Assembly (NCBI GenBank): GCA_016742275.1
Contig: JACVCD010000001.1
Span: 186,001-250,000 of the forward strand
DNA from: Gemmatimonadaceae bacterium
GTDB taxonomy: Bacteria > Gemmatimonadota > Gemmatimonadetes > Gemmatimonadales > Gemmatimonadaceae
Direction: 5' to 3'
Length of the DNA: 64,000 nt
Each line of letters starts with the position of its first letter. Position 1 is the first letter of the stretch. A program made the position numbers and the translations under genes. Positions 9,963 through 53,910 of the stretch are shown here, in pieces. The notes under the pieces were generated by a model. That model was not told the origin of the DNA. It was given only the letters and a program-made list of their open reading frames with translations, and did no database searches.

Positions 9963-10020
9963 TGCTCGGTGGGATTGGGGGCATTGTGTTTATGCACTCC
10001 GGATCTCCTTGAGGCAACTG

Positions 10021-10158
10021 TGAGGATGGGAGGAACAGATGGCGTGAGGATGGGAGGATCTGAGGATATGAGGGCGGGCCCATGGGGGCACCGTTGGTGC
10101 CTCCATGGGCCCGCTCATGTCGCAGACCGCCATGCTCGCGTCATCATGGCACTGCGGT
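10021..10158. repeat. Palindromic repeat, copy A (intact left arm, degenerate right arm)
   Basis: The left arm runs from 10021: GAACAGATGGCGTGAGGAT, then GGAGGATCTGAGGATATGAG, then GCGGGCC. The central stem (about 10074-10113) pairs GCGGGCCCATGG...CACC with GGTG...CCATGGGCCCGC around a 3-base loop. The right arm, which in other copies reads back through CTCATATCCTCAGATCC, is present only in eroded form (CGCTCATGTCGCAGA...). The eroded arm faces the GxxExxY gene. It is one of four copies in the window (others at 10581, 15031 and 53769). Confidence 0.85.
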
Positions 10159-10194
10159 GACGTGGGGGTGACACGGCTCCACAGGTTGATCGGT

Positions 10195-10614
10195 ATGGAA
10201 ATCGACACGTTGACGGATCTGGTCATTGGTGAGGCTATCCGGGTACACCGTTCGCTGGGGCCGGGGCTTCTGGAGTCGAGCTACCGGCAGATTATGGCGG
10301 AGGTGCTGGTGCGTCGGGGCTGTGAGGTGCAGACCGAACTCGCGCTGGACTTGGCATTCGAGGGGATCATCATTCCGCGAGCCTACCGAGTGGATTTGCT
10401 GATCGACGGCGTGCTCGTCGTCGAAGTCAAACAGACCGAACGCATTGCGCCCGTGCATCGGCAGCAACTGCTGACATACTTGCGCTTGCTCGATCTCCCA
10501 CGCGGCCTGCTTCTCAACTTTGGGCTGGGCACCATGAAAGACGGCATCGCGCGTGTTTCCAATCCTCGAGTCCAAGACATGAAGGATTTGAGGGTCGATC
10601 GCGCGAGAGTTTGA
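10195..10614 (+). CDS. GxxExxY protein (PD-(D/E)XK nuclease-like)
   Basis: A 139-residue protein with the family's defining motif GLLESSY (G-x2-E-x2-Y) within GEAIRVHRSLGPGLLESSYRQ. A PD-(D/E)XK-like core follows: YRVDLLIDGVLVVEVKQTE gives the D...E-x-K pattern. I choose the ATG at 10195 (MEIDTLTDLVIGEA) because the family starts there; the frame opens further upstream within repeat copy A. The last dozen codons (from about 10581, DLRVDRARV) are encoded by the eroded left arm of repeat copy B, so its natural C-terminus seems altered or shared with the repeat. Function of the family is not established; nuclease activity is inferred from the fold. Confidence 0.85.
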   Translation: MEIDTLTDLVIGEAIRVHRSLGPGLLESSYRQIMAEVLVRRGCEVQTELALDLAFEGIIIPRAYRVDLLIDGVLVVEVKQTERIAPVHRQQLLTYLRLLDLPRGLLLNFGLGTMKDGIARVSNPRVQDMKDLRVDRARV

Positions 10615-10730
10615 GGTTTGAGGACATGAGCGCGCGGGCCGGCGAGACACCAGCTGTATCGGTGTCTCGCCGGCCCGCTCTCATATCCTCAGATCCTCCA
10701 ATCCTCACGCCATCTGTTCCTCAAAGCCTC
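10581..10730. repeat. Palindromic repeat, copy B (eroded left arm, intact right arm)
   Basis: The central stem pairs GCGGGCCGGCGAGACACC with GGTGTCTCGCCGGCCCGC around AGCTGTATC. The intact right arm reads CTCATATCCTCAGATCC, TCCAATCCTCACGCC, ATCTGTTCCTC to about 10730. The left arm (GAAGGATTTGAGGGTCGATC onward) is recognisable but eroded and encodes the C-terminal codons and stop of the GxxExxY gene. The stem core differs from that of copies A, C and D, yet pairing is complete. Confidence 0.85.
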
Positions 10731-10745
10731 CACCACTCTCGGATC

Positions 10746-15000: not shown

Positions 15001-15030
15001 GCCACGAAATCTATCGGATTGGAGGGGATG

Positions 15031-15182
15031 GAGGATTTGAGCAACAGATGGCGCGAGGATCAGAGGATTTGAGGACAGGAGGTGCGGGCCCCGAGGGCAC
15101 CCGGTCGCGCAGGGTGCCCTCGGGGCCCGCTCTCTTATCCTCAGATCCTCCAATCCTCATGCCATCTGTTGCTCAGATCCTC
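15031..15182. repeat. Palindromic repeat, copy C (both arms intact)
   Basis: The best-preserved copy. Left arm from 15031 (GAGGATTTGAGCAACAGATG, then GCGCGAGGATCAGAGGATTT) and right arm to 15182 are inverted repeats of about 65-70 bases with only scattered mismatches. The centre pairs GCGGGCCCCGAGGGCACCC with GGGTGCCCTCGGGGCCCGC around a loop of about 9 bases. The element touches the stop codon of the RND subunit gene (15182-15184). Confidence 0.9.
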
Positions 15183-18100
15183 TAGCCCCCTCTCATCCGG
15201 CGAGCCATGAGAGCCGGCATCACAAACAAAACCCCGAGGGTAGCGGCCACCGTCCCACCCGCCGTGGCGAGTGCGATGGCACCGAACAGATTGTCCGTTC
15301 CCGTTCCCCACGAGAGTGGGATGAGGGAAGCCAATGCGGCGAAGGTCACGATCATGATCATGCCGACGCGATCGAGCAGGGCGCGCACGACCTGACCGGC
15401 ATGCACGCGGCCATTGCTGCGTCGATGTGGAAGCAGAGCGTCTACCAGCAGAATCGTCTGATTGACCGCGAGGCCGACGACCAGGATGACACCGACGGCG
15501 GCTTCGCGGGTGAATGGCGCCTTGGCAATCCAGAATGCCGCCGCAACACCGGCGAGTGCCAATGGCAGCGATATGAACACCATCACCGCGGCCCACACAC
15601 TGTCGAATACCAGCGCAACCGACAGAAGCACGAGTGTTACGCCAATCGCGAACACCAGCCACAAACCTTTGGCGCTTTCGTCGTTTCCGAAGGGCATGCC
15701 ACTGCTGATGTCTTCGATGCGATAGCCGGCCGGCGCCGAGACCGACTTCATGAATGCATCGTGTGTGCGCTTTGCCAGTCGGGCTGGGCCACGAAAGTCA
15801 TAGACCAATTGCCGCACGTATTGTTGGTCTTCGCGAACGACACTGCCGAGTGCTTCGCGTTCGGCGACCAGCGCCACATCACGAATGCGGATCGGTGCGC
15901 CTGTGGCGTTGGGGATGAGTGCATCCTGCAATTCGTCGACCGAACGCGCCGTGGCACCAACTGCTTTGACGGTAACGGGGAGTTCGTCGCCATCAATTTC
16001 GACTTGCTGCCGGCCCATCGGGCCACGCACTTCGCGGCTCACCGCCTGCACAAATTGCGCTGCATTGAGACCGTAGCGCGTGAGCGCACGACGATCGGGC
16101 TCCACCGTGACCTGTGAGCCGCGTTCGCTCGCATACCATCCACCACTGGTAATGCGGATATCGCGCACGCGGATATTGGTGGCGAGCCGCGTTGCCAGGT
16201 CTTCAGCGATACGCTGTACTCCGGCATAGTTGAAGCCCTTGAGTTGAATGCGGTACGACGCAAACGATCCGCCGCCACCTCCACTCGAAAAGGCCGGGCC
16301 TTCTCCCACCACACTGATGGATGCACCACCAACCAGCACCGCGCGCTGTGTAAGTATTTCCTGCATCTCGAGCGGTGCTGCCGTCAGTCCGCCCTCGCGC
16401 GTAAACACCACCACCATCTGCGCACTGGAGCCACCGTATGACGTGGCTCGCACCTGCTCCACTTCTGGTCTACCGACCGCAAGTGCCTCGAACTCCGTCA
16501 TGGCCTGATCGAGTGTGATCGGATCCGAACCGCGCGGAAACGAAATGTGCACACTCAATGTGGTACGTCGCTCACCCCAGAAGTTGAAATTCGAGCGCGG
16601 CACCTTCGCGACAAACCCATACACCATCACTCCCAATACCGTGACGGAGGCCAGGAGCGTCGCCCATCGCCAGCGAAGCAGCGCCATGCTTACATGTGCA
16701 AAGACGCGACGCAGTCGCCTGAACGGCCGCTTGGCAATACGCGCAGAATGAGCTGCCAGTCGTATGCGTGACACACGCCCAACGGCCGGAACCACCAGCA
16801 GCGCGGTGAATACACTCCACGCCAGCGCCAGCAAAAATGCGAGCGCGAAAGGCATGAACGCCGCTCGCGAGTTGCCCTGGAGGTAGAGAAAGGGGAACAA
16901 CACGACGGCAGTGGTGAGTGTGCCGCCAACAACAGCCGGTGCAATACGGCGCGTGGATTCAGCGCGCACTTCCGGCTCATCGGGAACTCTGGCCAATCGT
17001 TCGACGACCACGATGGCGTTCTGCACCAAAATGCCTACACCCATGCCAAGCCCGGCAAGTGTGAGCAAGTTGGCCGGAATACCAAACACGTACAGCGACA
17101 GTGCCGTCGCCGTGATGGCCACGGCGGTTGTACCCATTACCACCAGGACCGCCTGCCACTGCCGCATCAGCAACAGCAATACGGCACATACACTGGCAAA
17201 AGCCACGGCACCGCGCAGCATGAGATCACGCAAGTCGTCCGCGAGATCCTCACTCGAATCACTCGTCACGCGAAGCTGCACACCAATTGGCAATTGCGGT
17301 TCGAGCGCGGCTATCGCGCTGCGCAATGCCTTGGCGGTTTCAATGGCGTCTGCCCCTGCATGTCGCGACACATCGATTGCGACAGCAGGCCGGCCATCAA
17401 TACGAAAAAATCGTCCGCGTGCATCCTCATCCGCGCGAATGGTCGTCAATTCCGACAGACGAAACTGGCGTCCTCCTGGACCAATCACCGGCAGATCACC
17501 CAGCGCCTCGAGACTTTTCGGCTGATCCCGTAGCACCACATTGCGGACCAGCCCTGATCCTCGTGGTTCGAGCACACCGAGCGACTGCACAATGCGTGCA
17601 TTGGTCAGTGCATCGCTCAACTGCTGTGGGGCAATACCCAGACGCCGCAGTCGCGTGGCATCAAAACTGACCGACACGCCCAGGTCAGTACCACCGCGGA
17701 CCTGCACACCAGAAACCCCCGCTACGGATGACAGGCGTGGCGCCACATCCCGATCGAGAATGCGCTGGAGTGTACCTGGGGTGTACGGTCCGAAAATGGT
17801 AATGGAGAGCAGCGGTGCTTCCTGCAGTCCCTCCGGCACATAGTTGGACACCGTGGGCAGATAGGCACCCGGTGGCAGGTCTCTCCGAAAGAGTTCGAGG
17901 CGCTCGAGAATGCCGAGACGGACCATCTGCAGATCCGCCTGCGGTTCGAGCTCCACCGTGAGCATGGCGCTTTCGTCACGACTCGTACTGGAGACACGCT
18001 TTACTCCACGAACACCCTGAATGGCGGACTCTATGGGCGACGTGAGATAGGTCTCCATGACTTCAGGCGACGCGCCGGCCCAGTACGCATTCACCGAAAG

Positions 18101-53760: not shown

Positions 53761-53768
53761 GAGAACAG

Positions 53769-53910
53769 CGAACAGATGGCGCGAGGATCAGAGGATTTGA
53801 GGATATGAGTGCGGGCCCCGAGGGCACCCGATCGTACAGGGTGTCCTCGGGGCCCGCTCTCTTATCCTCAGATCCTCCCATCCTCACGCCATCTTTTCCC
53901 TCACATCCTC
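53769..53910. repeat. Palindromic repeat, copy D (both arms present)
   Basis: Left arm GAACAGATGGCGCGAGGATC, AGAGGATTTGAGGATATGAG; centre GCGGGCCCCGAGGGCACCC paired with GGGTGTCCTCGGGGCCCGC; right arm CTCTTATCCTCAGATCC onward. It fills the space between convergent tyrS (stop 53760) and the aminotransferase gene, whose TGA (53909-53911) overlaps the repeat end. Stem sequence is almost the same as copy C, with one G-T pair. Confidence 0.9.

Follow-up and report, generated by a model that had tools for sequence, protein, structure and literature searches.

The window, by which we mean the whole 64,000-nucleotide stretch analysed here, comes from a Gemmatimonadaceae bacterium (assembly GCA_016742275.1, contig JACVCD010000001.1, positions 186,001–250,000). 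It contains a GxxExxY gene bracketed by two copies, A and B, of a palindromic repeat (Table 1), and this arrangement was confirmed at the positions given in the original prediction. The outer arms, previously described as intact and inverted relative to each other, are indeed so and lie 591 nt apart, and each copy has one separate GC stem. The repeat copies of the window are located between protein-coding ORFs, and the PF13366 protein is the only gene product encoded between the two outer arms, with no HUH (Y1) or DDE transposase there. Erosion of the gene-facing inner arms, also predicted, was found in both window copies but is not a general feature, since these arms are intact in the sister genome (G001), which shares the unit with the genome of the window (G000). 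In G001, the two palindromes flanking the gene (L230, 19–120 and 585–710) have identical stems and different loops, as if homogenised within the element. The two gene-free copies with both arms intact, expected elsewhere in the window, were recovered as well.

Table 1. Features of the GxxExxY locus and of two gene-free repeat copies in the window
Feature	Position	Strand	Basis
Outer arm, copy A (GAGGATNN units; GAACAGATGGCGTGAGGAT...)	10022–10080	+	Inverted match to 10672–10730, 59 nt, 92% complementary
Central GC stem-loop, copy A	10074–10114	+	19-nt arms, 95% complementary
Eroded gene-facing side, copy A	10115–10194	+	No arm of normal length; 13-nt remnant at 10109–10121
GxxExxY gene, 139 aa, predicted PD-(D/E)XK nuclease of Cas4/RecB type	10195–10614	+	PF13366, TIGR04256, motifs, fold model
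Eroded inner arm, copy B; overlaps the ORF at its 3' end	10580–10633	-	Palindrome at about 10579–10731, 74–76%
Central GC stem-loop, copy B	10634–10678	+	18-nt arms, 100% complementary
Outer arm, copy B	10672–10730	-	Inverted match to 10022–10080
Gene-free copy, both arms intact	15024–15189		Arm-pattern search; orthologous place in G001 also filled
Gene-free copy, both arms intact	53767–53901		Arm-pattern search

Profile searches matched the window protein to PF13366 (E 5e-33; 114.5 bits against a curated cut-off of 22) and TIGR04256 (E 3e-32; 111.6 bits against 35). Six residues (E27, D67, E77, K79, Q91 and Y95) are invariant in 51 homologues, and the last five make up the pattern D...ExK...QxxxY, which is the active-site pattern of RecB/Cas4-type nucleases. 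An AlphaFold2 model (pLDDT 91) had Cas4 SSO0001 (4ic1) as its best PDB fold match (E 3.5e-4), with TM-scores of only 0.41–0.50 for the top matches; the next ones, with modest TM-scores, include MGME1, a Holliday junction resolvase and lambda exonuclease. PADLOC returned a match to Cas4 (E 6e-4), a sequence search of the PDB gave no match, and a search of PHROGs gave weak matches only. None of the invariant or nearly invariant columns of the 51 sequences contains a cysteine, so there is no sign of an Fe-S cluster. The protein is predicted to be a compact Cas4/RecB-like nuclease, of the PD-(D/E)XK type that had been proposed. Compared with its positional counterpart in G001, the window gene has a dN of 0.31 and a saturated dS, against 0.08 and 0.99 for the neighbouring gene; these values show purifying selection on a gene that nevertheless diverges faster than its neighbour. 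GxxExxY genes are present in 83 of 118 genomes of the family to which the window belongs, at 1–9 copies per genome. The literature searched, 5.39 million papers, contained nothing on these repeats and named GxxExxY in two papers, one of which refers to the domain in passing and does not comment on its function.

The arm pattern matched 10 times in the window (0.01 expected from shuffles) and 77 times across the whole genome of 4.57 Mb, where a reversed-pattern control gave 0. These 77 matches correspond to about 24 places, nearly all of them full palindromes of about 130–185 bp with the layout GGATNNGAGG..GAACAGATGGCGYGAGGATNNGAGGATCTGAGGATAAGAG, GC stem and mirror image, and about 22 gene-free copies are found elsewhere in the genome. 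Their spread is uneven, with at least 8 of the roughly 24 copies on one 322-kb contig (C4) and many contigs without any. Two copies on this contig, L024 (C4: 4880–5064) and L028 (C4: 103648–103829), combine normal arms with unrelated central stems (AAGGAAAGGGGCGGGGATGCG and GAACAAAAGGGTGGGGGCG, respectively), suggesting that the centre is swappable. In the search of relatives, the family was also detected in the same-genus genomes G001 and G137, and by arm pattern it was absent from 11 other genomes of the genus. One arm position reads GGC in all 46 arms of G000 and GGT in all 23 arms of G001, so the arms of the two genomes differ despite at least three common sites, and arms within a genome evolve in concert.

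To examine GxxExxY genes more widely, 80 loci with flanks of up to 10 kb were collected from named genomes across phyla, and 75 were scored by the best local alignment between the 350 bp upstream and the reverse complement of the 350 bp downstream; all other ORFs of the fetched loci (n=680; small ORFs, n=255) were scored alike as controls. A score of at least 20 was reached by 42/75 GxxExxY genes versus 17/680 controls (Fisher p 1.5e-34), and a score of at least 25 by 28/75 versus 3/680 (p 1.5e-27), and by 0/255 of the small ORFs. Bracketing is therefore about 20 times commoner for GxxExxY genes than for controls. The arm-positive loci belong to Pseudomonadota, Planctomycetota, Verrucomicrobiota, Bacteroidota, Balneolaceae, Acidobacteriota, Cyanobacteria, Chloroflexota, relatives of Desulfobacterota, Gemmatimonadota, KSB1 and a methanosarcinal archaeon. 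In an independently drawn sample of the family to which the window belongs, 17 of 32 GxxExxY loci scored at least 20, compared with 6 of 357 ORFs of same-genus regions; three of these six belong to this type of repeat. By the same measure, 33 of the 75 loci (about 45%), including most Sphingomonas loci, have no flanking arms. Some low-scoring arms of GC-rich alphaproteobacterial loci (L094, L099 and L103) resemble coding sequence and have probably been called falsely, an error to which the controls are equally prone. Genome-wide, arm words were mostly well above the reversed-pattern control (275 versus 79 in Anabaena catenula, 40 versus 4 in Parasphingorhabdus), and in a few genomes the excess was small or absent. 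The association of inverted unit arms with GxxExxY genes is general and extends over about 12 phyla.

The GxxExxY arms, 25–40 bp or longer and often only 1–20 bp from the ORF, consist of quasi-tandem units, each formed by a word such as CACAGAG, CGCAGAG, CGCAAAG, CACGAAG, CACTAAG or CACGGAG plus 1–2 bases. The unit variant is largely constant within an element, through all units of both arms, and different between elements. A period of 8–9 bp was found in 47 of 59 cases (8 bp in 29, 9 bp in 18). Protein similarity correlates with arm similarity (Mantel r 0.41, p 0.0005), which suggests, with shared ancestry as a possible confounder, that the nuclease may read its own arms. Heptameric repeats are known from cyanobacteria as STRR. 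In the same family of genomes, four-helix-bundle genes (TIGR02436, S23p/IVP) also have inverted arms, at 19 of 30 loci (L159–L188), and their units are 7 bp long (best lag 7 in 15 of the 19). These units (AGGTATC, GGGCGAC, TTGGGAG, TTGAGAG and others) resemble the heptamers of the 23S rRNA intervening sequence (IVS) of Coxiella, in which tandem copies of GACAGAT lie just upstream of the S23p ORF (PMC4990558); the two findings fit each other.

Genomes G117 and G004 (about 92% identity, with about 150 kb of synteny) differ by four gene-free palindromes of 104–124 bp, each an exact presence/absence indel with no consistent target duplication at the junctions, which shows that palindromes are gained or lost as units. 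All empty junctions resolved to the base belong to gene-free palindromes; the comparison of gene-bearing sites was at 80–87% identity. For the latter, the sites of the other two GxxExxY genes of G000 (L001 and L002) were traced through 30 same-genus genomes and then inspected. At the L001 site, the gene is present in G000, G001, G137, G005 and G141, and by position also in G042; G003 has neither gene nor palindrome (96 bp), and G004 and G117 have a short palindrome only. At the L002 site, the gene is present in G000, G001, G137, G105, G145 and others, and missing from G139, G042, G068, G010 and G011 (219–306 bp); G141 and G005 have a long palindrome only. One and the same intergenic site can therefore be empty, palindrome-only or gene-bearing. 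The empty sites looked for in relatives were thus obtained at these two sites but not at the window locus itself, where G042 and G068 were rejected as empty because unrelated genes fill the interval. A candidate empty site of a gene-bearing copy (G004 C75/G117 C17) was also rejected as not clean, and at the L216 site in G004 the contig ends fall within repeats.

Occupied sites have also exchanged alleles. At the C6 site of G117 and G004, the flanks are about 95% identical and the edges sharp, whereas the proteins share 66% amino acid identity (dS 1.28) and the arms differ too. At the L001 site, the G001 allele (L260) has 53% amino acid identity between flanks of about 85%, and the G137 allele there has 77%. 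Conversely, the C14/C20 allele (L214 9399–9972 in G117, L217 in G004) is 100% identical over 400 bp in genomes averaging 92%, the most conserved of 2579 such windows in about 150 kb, suggesting recent transfer or conversion. Allele replacement together with one near-identical allele is suggestive of homing. In G004, three palindromes of about 137 bp stand in tandem beside a GxxExxY gene (L217 9890–10165), and G117 has a single one there (L214 9971), which indicates a change in the copy number of whole palindromes. The presence of the gene at all three sites in both G000 and G001 indicates that it often stays put for a long time.

These comparisons support mobility of the element as a unit, and the original proposal of a gene-bearing parent with mobile gene-free derivatives agrees with the palindrome indels and with the empty and palindrome-only sites. 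We consider it probable (roughly 60%) that positions 10020–10730 of the window are a selfish cassette, in which a Cas4/RecB-like GxxExxY gene lies between inverted unit arms, and that the gene-free palindromes are its non-autonomous derivatives. The main rival, which we regard as unlikely, is that host processes or another transposase move the palindromes, while GxxExxY and four-helix-bundle genes are only carried along within them or establish themselves at intergenic sites that are rich in palindromes and tolerate insertion. Such passengers would fit a layout common to two unrelated protein families, gene-free copies far outnumbering gene-bearing ones, and the re-occupation of the same intergenic sites by different palindromes, but would not be expected to show a unit length specific to the protein family (8–9 bp in GxxExxY arms, 7 bp in those of four-helix-bundle genes) or arms whose similarity tracks that of the proteins; moreover, conservation of the active site together with purifying selection implies that the nuclease activity is put to use.

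For the selfish cassette, we infer that the nuclease may take part in moving the repeats, in the following way: i) the GxxExxY nuclease would recognise its own arms, or a hairpin or cruciform formed by them, ii) it would then cut or process DNA at the arms, iii) repair would place a copy of the unit at a new site or at one that already has arms, in a homing-like manner, and iv) snap-back or template-switch synthesis would re-copy one half of a palindrome from the other. The last step would explain the state of the central stems, which vary between copies yet remain almost fully paired (95.5% Watson-Crick over 16 positions in 28 distinct copies). Up to four Watson-Crick pair types occur per position in these copies and G-U pairs are few, which suggests that one half is re-copied at the DNA level. 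Alternatively, the palindromes could shield small selfish genes as bidirectional terminators or as hairpins for RNA processing, with pairing selected in RNA. Strong GC stems with two-sided changes and intergenic placement are compatible with this, and the hairpins of 23S IVS elements are excised by RNase III (PMC4990558). However, selection on RNA would tolerate G-U pairs, which are rare among the stem variants, the tandem-unit arms reach far past the stem, and the unit-wise gain and loss and the switching of alleles would be left unexplained, so that we find a purely structural role quite improbable. That two ordinary dispersed-repeat copies merely landed on either side of an unrelated gene is hardly credible: this repeat family brackets only one of three GxxExxY genes in G000 (and one of three in G001), and repeat copies also enclose two other genes on contig C4, but the roughly 20-fold excess across phyla already contradicts it, and the other two GxxExxY genes of G000 each adjoin a palindrome of their own, of a different family. 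The predicted link between repeats and GxxExxY genes accordingly stands for inverted arms as a class and not for this particular repeat.

The arrangement is real and general and appears to be undescribed. Somewhat more tentatively, at a little under even odds, GxxExxY genes (8–9-bp units) and S23p genes (7-bp units) between inverted unit arrays may form a joint, hitherto unrecognised class of selfish elements in bacteria and archaea that spread by hairpin copying, with 23S IVSs as landings in rRNA and many intergenic palindromes as gene-free derivatives. The inverted unit arms give GxxExxY proteins a testable function, that of an arm-specific nuclease of a selfish element, and may account for large families of intergenic palindromes which are usually left unexplained. 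They also provide a connection to the rise and spread of 23S IVSs, the origin of which was termed unclear (PMC4990558).

As these systems are defined, the GxxExxY cassette is not a REP/RAYT system, an IVS or Cas4 proper. It resembles the 23S IVS with S23p (four-helix bundle, TIGR02436) as a short selfish element whose small ORF occupies the loop between inverted repeats and has short tandem repeats beside it, as in Coxiella (GACAGAT; PMC4990558). It differs in encoding a putative PD-(D/E)XK nuclease instead of a helical bundle, in having units of 8–9 bp and not 7, in the location of the present copies between genes and not in rRNA, and in the abundance of gene-free palindromes. REP sequences and REPINs with RAYT are dispersed intergenic palindromes with a rare gene-bearing copy, and RAYTs are HUH/Y1 transposases. 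The distribution found here is the same, whereas the only gene is Cas4/RecB-like and the arms are quasi-tandem units that vary freely between elements. With Cas4/RecB nucleases, the GxxExxY proteins share the D, ExK and QxxxY motifs and the best fold match (4ic1); unlike Cas4 proper, they have only about 125–140 aa and no invariant cysteines. Homing endonucleases and MITE/parent pairs likewise combine a nuclease gene with gene-less copies, replacement of alleles at fixed sites, and empty and filled sites, but no intron or intein was seen here and there is no DDE transposase between the arms; the four exact palindrome indels show no consistent target duplication.
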